Notes under the pieces: model-generated | Databases searched by the model: none | What the model saw: the letters and a program-made list of their open reading frames with translations, nothing else | Told to the model about the DNA's origin: nothing | Source of the DNA: Salinispira pacifica | GTDB taxonomy: Bacteria; Spirochaetota; Spirochaetia; DSM-27196; Salinispiraceae | Length of the DNA: 64,000 bases | Direction: 5' to 3' | NCBI RefSeq assembly: GCF_000507245.1 | Contig: NC_023035.1 | Location: forward strand, 3,701,570-3,765,569 | Shown: one piece after another, positions 56,855 through 64,000 of the stretch | Layout: each line of letters opens with the position of its first letter | Numbering within the stretch: the first letter of the stretch is position 1 | Position numbers and translations under genes: made by a program

Positions 56855-57793
56855 ATGGATTTTTTCAGCGGACTGCTGATCAGCGGCGGTCTTGCAGCCC
56901 TGGTGGTCATTGTATTTTTCAAGCTCCTGCGGATCGTTCCTGAGCAGCAGGCATGGGTCATAGAGTTTTTCGGTAAGTTTCAGAAAACTCTTGGACCCGG
57001 TTTTCACATGGTTCTCCCGGGAATTCAGCGGGTGGTGGATAAACACGAACTGAAAGAGGAGGTAATCGACGTACCTCCTCAAATATGTATTACCCGGGAT
57101 AACGTACAGGTTACCGTGGACGGGATTCTGTATCTTAAGGTGATGGATCCGGAAAAAGCCAGCTACGGTATTGATAATTACCGCTATGCGGCAGCCCAGC
57201 TCGCCCAGTCCAATATGCGCAGCGAAATCGGGAAGCTGGAACTTGACCGCACGTTTTCCGAACGGGAGATTATGAATAATGCAATTGTGAAAGCTGTTGA
57301 TGAGGCTTCGGATCCATGGGGCATAAAAGTAACCAGGTATGAAATCAAGGATATCACCCCTGAAAACCCCATAATTGATGCAATGGAAGCCCAGGTGAGA
57401 GCTGAACGGGAAAAACGGGCGGAGATCCTGGAATCCGAAGGGGTAAAACAGAGCCGGATCAATGTCTCCCAGGGTGACAAGAGTGAATCCATCAATAAAT
57501 CCCAAGGTGACAGGCAGAAGAAGATCAATGAAGCCCAGGGAAGGGCAGAGGCAATTACCATTGTTGCCGATGCAACTGCACAGGGTCTTCAGGAGATCGC
57601 CAAAGCCATAAAAGAACCTAACGGCGAGAAAGCGGTTAATTTGCGGCTCACCAACCAGTTTGTCCAGCAGCTCGAGGAGATCCTCAGCGATGCCCATGTA
57701 TCGGTAATGCCCCATGACCTGGCCCAGATACAGTCGGTTATTTCCAGCGTTCTGCCCGGTAAGTCCGGAGGATCCCAGGGAGGTGCAGCATGA
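56855..57793 (+). CDS. SPFH/stomatin-family membrane protein 1
   Basis: A 312-residue stomatin-like protein. One N-terminal helix (about 5-25) is followed by an SPFH/PHB domain (VIEFFGKFQKTLGPGFHMVLPG; DNVQVTVDGILYLKVMDPEKA) and a long charged coiled coil (AEREKRAEILESEG, INEAQGRAEAI). It assembles ring-like scaffolds in membrane microdomains and partners with NfeD. AGGAGG precedes the ATG. The start of its paralogue overlaps its stop by four bases. Confidence 0.92.
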   Translation: MDFFSGLLISGGLAALVVIVFFKLLRIVPEQQAWVIEFFGKFQKTLGPGFHMVLPGIQRVVDKHELKEEVIDVPPQICITRDNVQVTVDGILYLKVMDPEKASYGIDNYRYAAAQLAQSNMRSEIGKLELDRTFSEREIMNNAIVKAVDEASDPWGIKVTRYEIKDITPENPIIDAMEAQVRAEREKRAEILESEGVKQSRINVSQGDKSESINKSQGDRQKKINEAQGRAEAITIVADATAQGLQEIAKAIKEPNGEKAVNLRLTNQFVQQLEEILSDAHVSVMPHDLAQIQSVISSVLPGKSGGSQGGAA

Positions 57794-58725
57794 GCGGTAT
57801 GTTTCTCATAAATATTTTATTGGCCGGTTTCGGTCTTACTATTGTTATTTCGGTTATCCGAAGCATCCAGATCATTCCCTCCAAAACAGTACGGGTCGTT
57901 GAGAGACTGGGAAAATACAGCACAACCATGGAGGCAGGGCTTCATCTGCTTATCCCCTTCATAGACAAGGTTCGCTACCAGCACTCTCTGAAGGAACAGG
58001 CGCTTGATGTACCCAGTCAAAGCTGTTTTACGCTGGATAATGTGAAGATCCAGGTAGACGGTGTGCTCTACTTTCAGGTGATGGATCCCAAGAAGGCAAG
58101 TTACGGAATCACCAACTACCGCCTGGCGACCATCTATCTGGCCCAGACCACCATGCGTTCGGTTATCGGAAAACTGGATCTTGATAAAACTTTTGAAGAG
58201 CGGGAGCAGATCAATGCCGCCATTCTGAAAGAGGTTGATGAGGCTACCGATCCCTGGGGAGTAAAAGTCACCCGGTATGAAATTAAGGACATTACCGTTC
58301 CGCCGGACATTCTCCAGGCCATGGAAGTTCAGATGCGGGCTGACCGGGACCGACGGGCGGTAATTGCCCGGTCCGAAGGCGAACGGGATTCCAAGGTGAA
58401 CCACAGTCTGGGTGAAATGGAAGAAAATATTAACCGTTCCGAGGGGATCAAAGAGCAGCTGATCAATGAAGCACAGGGACGGGCGTCGGAAATCCTTGCT
58501 ATCGCAAAAGCCAGCGCCAACAGTATCCGTACATTGGCCAAGGCGATCTCCGTGGAGGGTGGTGATGATGCACTCAATCTGCAGATAATGGAAGGCTACC
58601 TTCAATCAATGAAATCTCTGGCAAAAAAAGACACTCAGGTGGTATTGCCGGTGGATTTAACCCAAATTGATGAAACCCTGGAAAAACTGAAGAAAATCAG
58701 TATCACATCAGGAAAGGAATCCTGA
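57790..58725 (+). CDS. SPFH/stomatin-family membrane protein 2
   Basis: A 311-residue paralogue of the preceding gene, about half identical by eye. It has the N-terminal helix (LLAGFGLTIVISVIRSIQI), the SPFH domain (VERLGKYSTTMEAGLHLLIPF; DNVKIQVDGVLYFQVMDPKKA) and the coiled-coil tail. The ATGA overlap with gene 1 suggests equal amounts of both proteins, perhaps as a hetero-oligomeric HflK/HflC-like ring. A strong terminator follows at 58755. Confidence 0.92.
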   Translation: MSGMFLINILLAGFGLTIVISVIRSIQIIPSKTVRVVERLGKYSTTMEAGLHLLIPFIDKVRYQHSLKEQALDVPSQSCFTLDNVKIQVDGVLYFQVMDPKKASYGITNYRLATIYLAQTTMRSVIGKLDLDKTFEEREQINAAILKEVDEATDPWGVKVTRYEIKDITVPPDILQAMEVQMRADRDRRAVIARSEGERDSKVNHSLGEMEENINRSEGIKEQLINEAQGRASEILAIAKASANSIRTLAKAISVEGGDDALNLQIMEGYLQSMKSLAKKDTQVVLPVDLTQIDETLEKLKKISITSGKES

Positions 58726-58887: not shown

Positions 58888-60165
58888 TCAGGGTACGATG
58901 CGCTTCCTGTCCCTGGGAAACAGACTGGCTTCCTTTACATTGGACAGACCGAGTATCTTCTGAGTAATCCGTTCCAGTCCGATGGCGAATCCGCCATGGG
59001 GGGGACAGCCGTACTTGAAAATATCAATATAGCCGCCCAGTCCCTCCTCGGTCATACCGAATTTGGGCAGGGTTTCTTTCATCATTTCGTACTCATTGAT
59101 CCGGCGGCCGCCGGTGGTAATTTCAAGTCCCCGGAAAATCAGGTCAAAACTTCTGGTCTTCAACCCGTCGGGGTATGTGTAGAACGGTCTCTTTTTTCTG
59201 GGGAACACAGTGATAAATACCGCAGGTACTGAATGCTCCTCCTGGGCCCATTCACAGATCAGCCGTTCACCCTCGGGGTTTATTTCGAAGACCTTCTTCC
59301 CTCCCCTCATGGAGATAATCTTTTTGGCCTCGTCATGGGTGATCCGGGGAATATTATTTACCGCCTCATCATCAGGAACCGTTGCTCCGTATTTTTCGAG
59401 AATGGCAGCTTCGTTTTCCCGTATCCCCCGGAAAATCGCTTTGAGAATTTCCGATTCAATATCCATGAGATCATGCTCATCCTCAATAAAGGCAAGCTCC
59501 ACATCAAGGGAAACATATTCGTTCAAGTGCCTGGGGGTATCATGCTTTTCAGCCCGGTAGGCCGCCCCCACCTCAAAAACCCGTTCAAGACCGCTGGCAA
59601 CCATTGCCTGTTTGTAGAACTGGGGACTTTGTGCCAGATACACCGAGGTATCGAAATATGCCACCTCAAAGAGTCCCGTGCCCCCTTCGGTGCCGGAACC
59701 GATCAGCTTGCTGGTTTTTATCTCGGTAAAATCCTGACTCCGCATGTATTCCTGAAAGTACCTGATCACGGAACTCTGCAGACGGAAAATATCCAGAATC
59801 TTGGGGTTGCGGATGCTGATCATTCTGTTATCCAGAACAGATTCGATACCGGTATTGTCCGCATCCTGGTTAATCTGAAAAGGCAGATCCGGGGCTGCGG
59901 GCGCCAGAACACTGCTCTCACCGGCCTGAACCTCGAATCCACCCGGAGCCTTGGGGTTTGCCCCGACTGTTCCGGTAACCTGAATAACCGATTCCAGGCT
60001 GTACTCGACTTTTCCTTCGTATACCAGCTGGAGAATTCCGCTTCGATCCCTGAGGAGTACAAAACTGATTGCTCCCAATTCCCGGATTCTGTGTACCCAT
60101 CCGGATACTGTCACTTCCCTGCCTTCAAATTCCGGAAGTTCCCGTGCAAGTGTACGTTTCATCAT
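58888..60165 (-). CDS. aspS: Aspartyl-tRNA synthetase, archaeal-type and probably non-discriminating
   Basis: A 425-residue class IIb synthetase. It lacks the GAD insertion of the bacterial form (about 590 residues) and resembles the archaeal/AspRS2 type. The OB-fold anticodon domain is followed by motif 1 (DFTEIKTSKLIGSGTEGGTGLF), motif 2 (YRAEKHDTPRHLNEY) and motif 3 (GGFAIGLERITQ), with C-terminal LFPRDRKR. In the anticodon domain, position 25 is His (WVH, Trp in discriminating archaeal enzymes) and position 74 is Pro (PKAPGG, Lys in those enzymes). This pair marks non-discriminating enzymes that also charge tRNA(Asn). Its start overlaps gatB by four bases (ATGA), so Asp-tRNA(Asn) would be passed straight to the transamidase. 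Confidence 0.92.
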   Translation of the reverse strand: MMKRTLARELPEFEGREVTVSGWVHRIRELGAISFVLLRDRSGILQLVYEGKVEYSLESVIQVTGTVGANPKAPGGFEVQAGESSVLAPAAPDLPFQINQDADNTGIESVLDNRMISIRNPKILDIFRLQSSVIRYFQEYMRSQDFTEIKTSKLIGSGTEGGTGLFEVAYFDTSVYLAQSPQFYKQAMVASGLERVFEVGAAYRAEKHDTPRHLNEYVSLDVELAFIEDEHDLMDIESEILKAIFRGIRENEAAILEKYGATVPDDEAVNNIPRITHDEAKKIISMRGGKKVFEINPEGERLICEWAQEEHSVPAVFITVFPRKKRPFYTYPDGLKTRSFDLIFRGLEITTGGRRINEYEMMKETLPKFGMTEEGLGGYIDIFKYGCPPHGGFAIGLERITQKILGLSNVKEASLFPRDRKRIVP

Positions 60166-62588
60166 AGTTTATCGTCCTTTTCAAGCTGAGCTGCGAATTC
60201 CTCTGCGATTACTCTGGCAAATGCGGATTCGGAACTGTCGGGTCCCATGGCCCTGGCTCCTTCCTTCCACAACTGGTGACTTGTCACATAATCCGCAAAA
60301 TCCACAAGTCCCTCCTGCTGGGATGTACAGTAAAAACGCACACCCTTCGCTTTTCCGTATTCAAGGGCTTCCCTGATGGAAAATGGGGACTGACTGAGGT
60401 TCGCCGTACCTGAATCATACAGTTCCAGAACCAGGCAGTTAACCCCCTGATCAATCAGTGCTTTAATCAGCGAACTTTGCATTCCCGGATATATTTTCAC
60501 CAGCGCCACTCGTTTGAGAATCTGCTCAAAGATAGACGTCACATAATCAAGCTCAGGAAGCTCATCCAGCCGGTCGATATCCAGGTCCGCATTGCTTTCC
60601 GTTTTCTTAAGAATATTCTGATTCCAGGTGCTGAACAGCTGTTCGCCGTCTTCAAAATTCCTGAATTTCAGATTATATGCCGGATACACTCTTCCGGAAA
60701 CGGATACACGGACAGATGAAGGACCGGAAACATCAAGATCGGGCCAGCCTTTTCTTCCCGCCGCTTCCAGCTCCATAATTCCGTTCTTCAGATGGTCAAC
60801 TCCTGAAGAATCTTCTTCCAGGGGATTCACTGCCGCTGTGAGAAGGATGGGCGTGTTGGAGGAGCCGAAAAACCAGTGGAGAAGTGCCGCGGTGTATGCC
60901 AACGTGTCGGTTCCGTGTGCAATGAGAATACCGTTGCTTCCCCGTTTCAGGAGCTTGAAGATTCTGTGAACCAGAGCTGCCCAGTCTTCAGGTGAGAGTT
61001 CTTCACTCAGGAATTTACCCATCTGAATTTCTTCGAACCTGAGATCCGCGGCTATTTCACCGTCGCGGGCAAGATATTTCCGGATATCCAGCATATCCCC
61101 CGGCTCGATAAACCCGTCACCCCTTCGGGTTCCGGATATTGCTCCGCCGAAACTGAGGATGTCCAGAGTTCTTACCTGCAGCGAGCTTGACAGCAGCTGC
61201 TGAACTTTTTTCGGTTCGGCCCGACCGGAGCTGGCCTGCATCACCTTGCCGATGAGAAACTTCACCGGCTTGGAATCTCCCGCCTGGATTTCCTGTACGG
61301 CCTTGGGAAAATCATTGAGAACCCCATCGATAATCTCCTGAATGGCACTGGAATCGGTTATCTGTTCCCAGTTCCGTTCTCTGATAATTGTTTCGGGATC
61401 CTTGTCTTCCTCAAAAATCACCTGCAGCACCTGCTTGGCGATCTTTCCGTGAATCCGACCCTGAGTCAGCAATTGAAGCATCTCCACCAGGCGACGTGAA
61501 CTCAGAGGACTGTGTTCCAGCACCATTCCGTGGCGGTTCAGCTCTTTCTGGACATCGCTGCTCAGCCAGGATACCAGCTGCAGCGGGTCGGCACCGCCCT
61601 GTATACATTCTTCAAAGAAATCGGCGGTGAACTTTTCATCGCAGATGAAATCCGCCTGAAGCTCGTTCAAGCCGTAATCGTTTCGGTAGCGATCCCTTCT
61701 GCTCAGGGGCAGTTCAACCTGAAGATCTTCCACCTGGGAGAGAAATTCCTTGTCCGTCCTGAACGGAGGAAGGTCGGGTTCGGGAAAATACCGGTAATCG
61801 TTGGCGTTTTCCTTGGTACGCATAATCTCAGTCTGATCCCGGTTTTCATTCCAGAGCCGGGTCTCCTGAACTATGGTTCCGCCCTTTTCCATGATTTCGC
61901 TTTGCCGTGAAATTTCGAAACTGAGAGACTTGCGGACAAAGCGGGAGGAGTTCAGGTTTTTCACCTCTACTTTATTTCCCAGCCCCTGGCCCGCAGGGTT
62001 GATGGATACATTGGCATCTGCCCTCATGGACCCTTCTTCCATGTTGCCGTCGGAAACTCCAAGATAGCGTACTATTCGCCGAAGCTCCTGAATGAGAACC
62101 TCCGCCTCTTCTGCCAGTTCAAGATCCGGTTCAGTCACAATTTCAAGGAGGGGTGTTCCGGTGCGGTTGAAATCCAGAAGGCTCATGTCTCCCGCATGAA
62201 CCATCTTTCCCGCATCCTCTTCCAGGTGACATTCGTGAATCCGAACCCGTTTCTTTTTCCCGTTGAATTCAATATCGATATAGCCGTCAGTCCCCAGGGG
62301 CTTCTCAAATTGGGATATCTGATAGTTTTTCGGCAAATCGGGATAAAAGTAGTTCTTCCGCTCAAAAACACACTCTTCGCTGAGCCGGCAGTTCAGTGCT
62401 CTGGCCACCGCATAGGATTTCTTTATGGCTTCTTCATTCAATGCGGGCAGAGATCCCGGCAGGCCCATACAGACCGGGCAAACATTGGTGTTGGGCTCAT
62501 CCCCGAAATGGTTTTTACAGCTGCAGAATACCTTGGACTCGGTTGTAAGCTGTACGTGTATTTCCAAACCGATAAACGATTGGTACAT
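60162..62588 (-). CDS. gatB: Asp/Glu-tRNA amidotransferase subunit B fused to an asparaginase-like domain
   Basis: An 808-residue fusion. Residues 1-470 are a complete GatB: GLEIHVQL, the zinc cysteines C22/C24 and C37/C40, the KNYFYPDLPKNYQISQ and HLEEDAGK segments, the middle helical domain and the YqeY-like C-end (VMQASSGRAEPKKVQQLL). Residues about 473-808 are a type I/II asparaginase fold, as in archaeal GatD. The first catalytic Thr (TGGTI in active enzymes) is Ala: LSFGGAIS, A483. The second pair is kept: AHGTDT, T560 and D561; the catalytic Lys is not certain. The ATG at 62588 has AAGGAG six bases upstream and is preferred over the GTG at 62618. gatA lies 26 bases upstream, aspS overlaps downstream by four bases. 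Confidence 0.92.
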   Translation of the reverse strand: MYQSFIGLEIHVQLTTESKVFCSCKNHFGDEPNTNVCPVCMGLPGSLPALNEEAIKKSYAVARALNCRLSEECVFERKNYFYPDLPKNYQISQFEKPLGTDGYIDIEFNGKKKRVRIHECHLEEDAGKMVHAGDMSLLDFNRTGTPLLEIVTEPDLELAEEAEVLIQELRRIVRYLGVSDGNMEEGSMRADANVSINPAGQGLGNKVEVKNLNSSRFVRKSLSFEISRQSEIMEKGGTIVQETRLWNENRDQTEIMRTKENANDYRYFPEPDLPPFRTDKEFLSQVEDLQVELPLSRRDRYRNDYGLNELQADFICDEKFTADFFEECIQGGADPLQLVSWLSSDVQKELNRHGMVLEHSPLSSRRLVEMLQLLTQGRIHGKIAKQVLQVIFEEDKDPETIIRERNWEQITDSSAIQEIIDGVLNDFPKAVQEIQAGDSKPVKFLIGKVMQASSGRAEPKKVQQLLSSSLQVRTLDILSFGGAISGTRRGDGFIEPGDMLDIRKYLARDGEIAADLRFEEIQMGKFLSEELSPEDWAALVHRIFKLLKRGSNGILIAHGTDTLAYTAALLHWFFGSSNTPILLTAAVNPLEEDSSGVDHLKNGIMELEAAGRKGWPDLDVSGPSSVRVSVSGRVYPAYNLKFRNFEDGEQLFSTWNQNILKKTESNADLDIDRLDELPELDYVTSIFEQILKRVALVKIYPGMQSSLIKALIDQGVNCLVLELYDSGTANLSQSPFSIREALEYGKAKGVRFYCTSQQEGLVDFADYVTSHQLWKEGARAMGPDSSESAFARVIAEEFAAQLEKDDKL

Positions 62589-62614: not shown

Positions 62615-64000
62615 TCACCCCCTCTCCAGACGGTATTCCGCCGGATAATCCCCGGGGCTTTGTATCGGAAAGCTCTCTTTCAATATTTCAGCGCATTCAA
62701 ACAGCAGATGCTCATGAAAGGCAGGCGCCATGAACTGAACTGCGGTGGGCAGAGTATTCAGAACCGGTCCGGGAACTGACAGTCCGGGAAGACCGGTGAG
62801 ATTCGCGGCGGTGGTGAATCGGTCTGCAATTTTCTGCTGGAATGCATCCAGGCCCTGCTCTCCGTGGGGGAATGCCTGGGTGGGAAAAACCGGCAGCATC
62901 AGCGTATCAACACTTTCAAAAAGCTCCCTGAATTCCCGGCGGATTTCGGTGCGTATCTGCTGTGCTTTATGATAAAATCTGTCCTGGAAACCCGAGCGAA
63001 GCACATAGGTACCCAGAAGAATTCGCAGCTTCACCTCATCGCCGAATCCCGCATCCCGGGACTTTCTTACAAGTTCATCAGGATTTTCCGCAAATATCGG
63101 CCGCTCTCCATAACGCACACCGTTGAACCGCGCCAGATTCGCACTGGCCTCGGCGGTTGCAATGGTGTAGTAGGAAGGCACCGTATATTCAAGACTGGGC
63201 ATCTCCACTTCTTTCAGCTCATACCCGGCTTTCTGCAGCTGTTCCACAGCCTGACCGTATGCTTCACCCATTTCCTCGCTCAGCCCCAGCTCTCCGGTGA
63301 GAATTCCGATGGTTTTCACCTCTTTCTTGGCAAGCGGGAAATCCCGGTAATCCACTGAACTCTGATCCATTTCGTCCCTGCCCCGGATGGCGTGAAAAAC
63401 ATCCCGTGTGAGATCGATATCTCCGGCCATAACCCCTACCACATCCAGCGATGACGCATAGGCCACAAGTCCGTATCGGCTTACCGAACCATAAGTTGGT
63501 TTCAATCCGTAAATTCCGCAGAATGCTGCCGGCTGACGCACAGACCCTCCGGTATCTGAACCCAGGGCAAACGGTACCAGACCTGCAGCCACCGCCGCCG
63601 CCGAACCTCCCGACGACCCCCGCAAACCCTGCTCAGATCCCAGGGGTTGTGACTCTGCTGGAGCGCGGAGTTATCGTTTGAAGATCCCATGCCGAACTCA
63701 TCCATATTTGTTTTTCCGGCGGGAACAGCTCCGTGGGCGCTCAGCCGCTGAATCACTGTGGCATCGTAGGGTGAAACGAAATGCTCAAGAAATTTCGACC
63801 CGCAGCTCAGGGGCATGTTCTTCACGGCGATATTGTCTTTTACTGCATAAGGAAGGTTTTCAAGGGAGTTATTGCTGGAATTATTGTCCGGATTGGATTG
63901 AGAATTATTGCCGGCAGCATCACCGGCCGCTGGCTGAACATTCTGTTCCTTCGGGGAAAAGTGAAGAAACGCCGACACGGCCGCATCGCGGTCCGTCACA
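62615..64000 (-). CDS. gatA: Asp/Glu-tRNA amidotransferase subunit A (5' end outside the window, apparent frameshift)
   Basis: This is GatA, the amidase that releases ammonia from glutamine. The catalytic Lys is in [10 protein letters not shown]. The frame then breaks where [12 protein letters not shown] is expected: the first frame runs past NPWDLSRV into VCGGRREV, and the second begins [33 protein letters not shown] with the cis-Ser and nucleophile Ser. The break coincides with the C5 run at 63617-63621; one extra base restores the frame. The rest is normal to the C-terminus. About the first 50 residues lie beyond 64000. It is followed by gatB and aspS. Confidence 0.88.

Follow-up and report, generated by a model that had tools for sequence, protein, structure and literature searches.

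Bacterial GatCAB amidotransferases working with a non-discriminating aspartyl-tRNA synthetase (AspRS) are described from Deinococcus, Thermus and Bdellovibrio, while in archaeal GatDE an asparaginase-fold protein is paired with a GatB/GatE-type transamidase. To our knowledge, no ligand-sensing domain is known in any GatCAB amidotransferase. The window analysed here, a stretch of 64,000 nucleotides from Salinispira pacifica, comes from a genome that shares with the Deinococcus, Thermus and Bdellovibrio type the gatC-gatA-gatB genes, such an AspRS beside AsnRS and GlnRS, tRNA(Asn) with U1-A72 and the expectation of tRNA-dependent Asn synthesis, but differs in that its GatB bears an extra domain of 336 residues that reads as a pseudo-asparaginase. 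In archaeal GatDE the asparaginase-fold domain is a separate, active subunit that has its Thr, whereas in S. pacifica it is fused to GatB, is dead by sequence and is encoded along with GatA. The fold and most substrate-binding residues are those of class-1 (type I) L-asparaginases (E. coli AnsA, Pyrococcus, Thermococcus), from which the fused domain differs in lacking equivalents of Thr12 and Tyr25, in having Glu for Gln59 and in being joined to GatB. The same Thr-to-Ala substitution is found in BlAsnase T13A and guinea-pig T19A, which bind Asn in crystals but, unlike the natural fusion, are stand-alone laboratory mutants.

We tentatively favor a reading in which GatB, as part of an amidotransferase acting on Asp-tRNA(Asn), gained a C-terminal pseudo-asparaginase that would bind Asn or Asp rather than hydrolyse, and would signal its occupancy to the amidotransferase, with the treponeme form of the protein acting as a stand-alone regulator. 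A conserved pseudo-asparaginase joined to GatB would open feedback control of Asn synthesis on tRNA to direct testing.

The fusion gene and its two domains

The open reading frame starts with ATG at 62588 (an alternative GTG start lies at 62618) and is divided as follows.

60162..62588, minus strand: gatB::asparaginase-like fusion gene, 808 amino acids (open reading frame and translation; matches to GatB and asparaginase domains)
61179..62588, minus strand: GatB part, residues 1-470, with cradle, helical and YqeY tail domains (profile matches)
60162..61172, minus strand: class-1 asparaginase-fold domain, residues 473-808 (PF00710, E 1.5e-20; predicted fold)

In profile searches the GatB equivalog model NF004012 scored 620.4 bits (cut-off 338) over residues 10-481 and PF00710 scored 73.9 bits (cut-off 22.5), with Asparaginase_C slightly below its cut-off. 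All of the GatB metal- and ATP-binding residues, whose roles are taken from published work (PMC4027206), are present in the S. pacifica protein (E9, H11, E123, E149, T152, N193 and S195). An earlier note, made from the letters of this DNA alone, had described the gene as a GatB with a C-terminal asparaginase-like domain, and the profiles bear this out, showing that an entire GatB of bacterial type precedes an entire class-1 asparaginase fold. Its further description of the fold as GatD-like needs modifying, since the resemblance is not specific to GatD: a search of solved structures with the single sequence gives GatD as the best match, but archaeal type I asparaginases rank about level with GatD when the family profile is used, and the protein falls far below the cut-offs of both the gatD equivalog TIGR02153 (89.9 of 324 bits) and the gatE model (141 of 319.55 bits), the fused partner being GatB.

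Catalytic and pocket residues

The positions that correspond to the active site of characterized asparaginases are listed below, EcAII numbers being those of E. coli AnsB, with conservation counted over 56 aligned fusions, near-identical copies included.

61140..61142, minus strand: Ala483, codon GCA, at the position of the catalytic Thr (EcAII Thr12), by codon reading and alignment
61110..61112, minus strand: Phe493, at the position of the catalytic Tyr (EcAI GYIP; EcAII Tyr25), by alignment; Tyr in no relative
61002..61007, minus strand: Ser528-Glu529 (EcAII Ser58-Gln59), substrate-binding; invariant, 56/56
60906..60911, minus strand: Thr560-Asp561 (EcAII Thr89-Asp90); Thr in 53/56, Asp in 56/56
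60666..60668, minus strand: Lys641 (equivalent of EcAII Lys162); Lys in 44/56, Arg in 12/56; register from the HMM alignment

When the protein is aligned without gaps to E. coli AnsA (GGTIGMQRSEQGYIP vs GGAISGTRRGDGFIEPG), Ala483 falls at the nucleophile Thr, and T560-D561 is present, so that the earlier claims of a first catalytic Thr replaced by Ala and of an intact second Thr-Asp pair are both correct. The replacement is conserved, the position-12 equivalent being Ala in 53 of the 56 aligned fusions: all 41 members of the operon group and 12 of the 15 treponemes have Ala, and the other three treponemes have Thr (2) or Val (1). The Tyr25 equivalent is never Tyr, even in the two Thr-bearing treponeme members; as aligned, Tyr25 is kept by no more than 48% of AII enzymes (PMC9500103). 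The equivalents of Ser58, Glu59, Gly88 and Asp90 are invariant, and three of these (Ser58, Glu59 and Asp90) are the residues that hold the carboxylate and amino group of the amino acid. Across the 56 fusions, conservation at seven pocket positions exceeds that at random positions of the domain (p ~1.5e-4). For Lys162, MAFFT placed a Phe in the column, whereas the HMM alignment and the ungapped K...F...N spacing give Lys641; all of the Arg replacements at this position fall among the 41 operon members. The domain is under purifying selection, with dN/dS of 0.01-0.14 in 14 pairs (12 from the operon group and 2 from the treponemes, the latter saturated at silent sites).

Because the Thr12 and Tyr25 equivalents are lost family-wide while the ligand pocket is kept under purifying selection, the sequences support the earlier suggestion that the domain is a dead enzyme. 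The accompanying statement that two ammonia-producing folds occur in one complex holds as far as the folds go, although ammonia production by the second is very improbable. It is improbable, in our estimation, that Thr89-Asp90-Lys162 still slowly hydrolyse the amide or act on tRNA-attached Asn. This second triad is largely preserved, catalytically deficient asparaginases without Thr89 or Tyr25 can retain residual activity (PMC8948990), and Thr is back at position 12 in two treponeme members; however, the family has lost both Thr12 and the Tyr, the two Thr members are likewise without the Tyr, Lys162 is Arg in 12 of the 41 operon members, and the T12V mutant of EcAII is inactive (PMC7567106).

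Predicted fold and binding without catalysis

A structure prediction built from three fused sequences gave a model of the domain with pLDDT 67.9 and pTM 0.74, the nucleophile loop falling below pLDDT 50. Compared with solved asparaginases this model reaches a Foldseek E of 1.1e-12 and VIA-align Z scores of 22-23; its best structural matches are BlAsnase-T13A with L-Asn, and guinea-pig T19A with Asn is also among the matches. In EcAII, the L-Asn complex of the inactive T12V mutant is nearly indistinguishable from that of the wild type with L-Asp (PMC7567106). By analogy with these engineered mutants, it is plausible that the fused domain binds Asn without catalysis. A model of the full-length fusion (pTM 0.54) leaves the relative orientation of the domains unfixed.

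With the cutting residue lost in nearly every relative and the amino-acid pocket kept, the domain more likely senses Asn than destroys it, and an Asn- or Asp-binding regulatory role is our best inference. Under this proposal the fused domain would be unable to hydrolyse Asn but would bind it (or Asp) stably, in the manner of the engineered Thr-to-Ala asparaginases; the occupancy of the pocket would then be relayed to the amidotransferase. A possible use would be feedback at times of abundant free Asn, with AsnRS able to charge tRNA(Asn) directly. The treponeme version of the protein would have lost its partners and the catalytic residues of GatB, and would serve alone as a regulator.

The operon and the asparagine pathway

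Genes in the operon group are arranged in the order gatC-gatA-gatB::domain-aspS2, and the window contains the two neighbors of the fusion gene.

58888..60165, minus strand: aspS2, of the archaeal-type non-discriminating AspRS family, overlapping the fusion stop codon by 4 bases
62615..63999, continuing past the window, minus strand: gatA, in two frames, with a one-base deletion at 63617-63621

Beyond gatA, outside the window, lie gatC and then a divergent glycosidase-like gene. The aspS2 product scores 511.7 bits with NF003483 (cut-off 353) and 392.1 with TIGR00458 (cut-off 368.4); it is of the non-discriminating type, that is, predicted to charge tRNA(Asn) with Asp. Wherever a non-treponeme locus has enough flanking sequence, aspS2 adjoins the fusion. 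A second, diverged AspRS/AsnRS-like protein of 433 amino acids, 36% identical to the fusion-adjacent aspS2, was seen at L160:3881-5182 (genome 3599889). Two tandem SPFH/stomatin-like genes with similar products were recognized by eye in the window at 56855-58725.

Class-1 asparaginases are tight dimers, and the domain could therefore be a scaffold with no ligand role, dimerising GatCAB or docking the neighboring non-discriminating AspRS into a stable Asn-transamidosome. This is possible but less probable than a sensor: operon-group loci consistently pair the fusion with aspS2, and the C-terminal half of the domain, far in sequence from the catalytic threonines, contains many conserved positions (CTSQQE, LELYDTGTA, PMG.LTTE), yet the invariant substrate-contact residues Ser58, Glu59 and Asp90 exceed what scaffolding needs, and the treponeme domain persists after aspS2, gatA and gatC have vanished from the locus.

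A GatA amidase gene next to the fusion had been reported in the earlier note, and gatA does adjoin it; the note had missed, however, that the frame appears split in the assembly, one base being absent from a G run at the GGSSGGS catalytic motif. This split copy is the only gatA in the S. pacifica assembly, with no intact second copy, which counts against the favored reading; gatA is a single open frame in relatives. The assembly used PacBio, Illumina and 454 data (PMC4511686). The strain requires yeast extract or peptone (PMC4511686), which would be no more than compatible with an Asn requirement. The apparent frameshift in gatA, together with the rank of GatD as top solved-structure match of the single sequence, might suggest that the domain is active and supplies GatB with ammonia as GatD would, in place of GatA or in addition to it. 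We regard this as highly unlikely, given the loss of the nucleophile across the family, the single open frame of GatA in relatives and the score of the protein far short of the gatD cut-off.

Besides aspS2, the genome has genes for AsnRS, for GlnRS and for an AspRS of the bacterial kind. AsnA was not found in it, nor was a convincing AsnB (a PF00733 match of 30 bits only), and both its tRNA(Asn) and its tRNA(Gln) carry U1-A72, the GatCAB identity pair (PMC4206432). Organisms with a gene set of this kind are thought to make Asn on tRNA (PMC4206432). The presence of AsnRS and GlnRS and the absence of AsnA and a convincing AsnB suggest that the operon is probably the tRNA-dependent asparagine pathway of S. 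pacifica. Across 53 genomes, a tie between the fusion and loss of asparagine synthetases was considered and showed no clear association. Several fused genomes possess AsnA, and asparagine feedback is therefore not bound to a sole Asn route.

Distribution and descent of the fusion

Matches to the domain occur in 67 of 395 genomes of the class Spirochaetia, as stand-alone asparaginases in 6 and in the fused type in 61. The latter span 14 families and are nearly all open frames of GatB length, a few being cut by contig ends and one broken by stops. No fusion was found outside the class among 393 genomes of the phylum, nor on viral contigs, and long GatB matches from other phyla stop at the YqeY tail, lacking the asparaginase-like domain. 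The fusion is not described in the open-access literature searched. A short asparaginase-like open reading frame of ~170 amino acids at L001 (about 1486-2004) holds the N-terminal half only, with GGT intact; its length is like that of a short-chain asparaginase from Rhodospirillum rubrum (PMC10949315).

In the domain tree the fused domain is monophyletic with respect to ten stand-alone asparaginases and GatD (100/100), on its own long branch, and the treponemes are nested within the fused clade (100/100). The Thr members lie inside the treponemes, and Ala is therefore most simply ancestral; the three non-Ala exceptions look derived. Specific descent from GatD is unsupported, in view of the tie in the family profile search and the position of the fused domain outside all ten stand-alone sequences.

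The GatB tree places the S. pacifica protein as sister to an unfused GatB of its own family (100/99). The other genomes of this family are without the domain, and the one examined retains the operon, which argues that the domain is dispensable. Several unfused operons are scattered among fused ones, a pattern most simply explained if the domain was lost more than once; transfer may be an alternative.

The earlier note had named a chimeric assembly as grounds for rejecting the fusion; this is ruled out by its presence in about 60 spirochaete genomes of 14 families. That the domain is such a chimera or a functionless, decaying remnant is accordingly, taken together, given little credence here. 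It is missing from close relatives and one treponeme copy is disrupted, but the low dN/dS and frames that remain open nearly throughout these genomes speak against decay. The disrupted copy (G101:C21:43105-44089) contains one TAG and one TGA.

The treponeme group

At 15 treponeme loci the fusion stands alone, with gatC, gatA and aspS gone, and a second, unfused GatB is encoded elsewhere in the treponeme genomes. All 15 fusions adjoin a divergent glycosidase-like gene, the one also seen beside the operon in S. pacifica, L034 and L117, and the treponeme fusion is therefore most simply at the ancestral locus, from which gatC, gatA and aspS have been lost. The GatB metal/ATP site is altered: H11 is Arg in 15/15 and E149 in 14/15, N193 is Tyr or His in 15/15, and S195 is Ala in 13/15. 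Mean column entropy in treponemes is lower for the domain (1.22) than for GatB (1.57), the reverse of the operon group (domain 1.38, GatB 0.93).

These patterns suggest that the treponeme fusion probably acts on its own as a regulator that binds a ligand or tRNA. A more speculative, rather doubtful history is that the pseudo-asparaginase arose once in spirochaetes as an Asn sensor of the tRNA-dependent pathway and that in treponemes this sensor survived the enzyme; deletion would have removed gatC, gatA and aspS, the GatB site would have been remodelled around conserved arginines, and the protein, inactive in both parts, would now be a lone amino-acid or tRNA sensor. The treponeme form offers a traceable case of a fused pseudoenzyme domain still constrained after the attached enzyme lost its catalytic residues and partners. 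The glycosidase-like gene at L151:11192-12613 is trehalase/GH63-like by eye.
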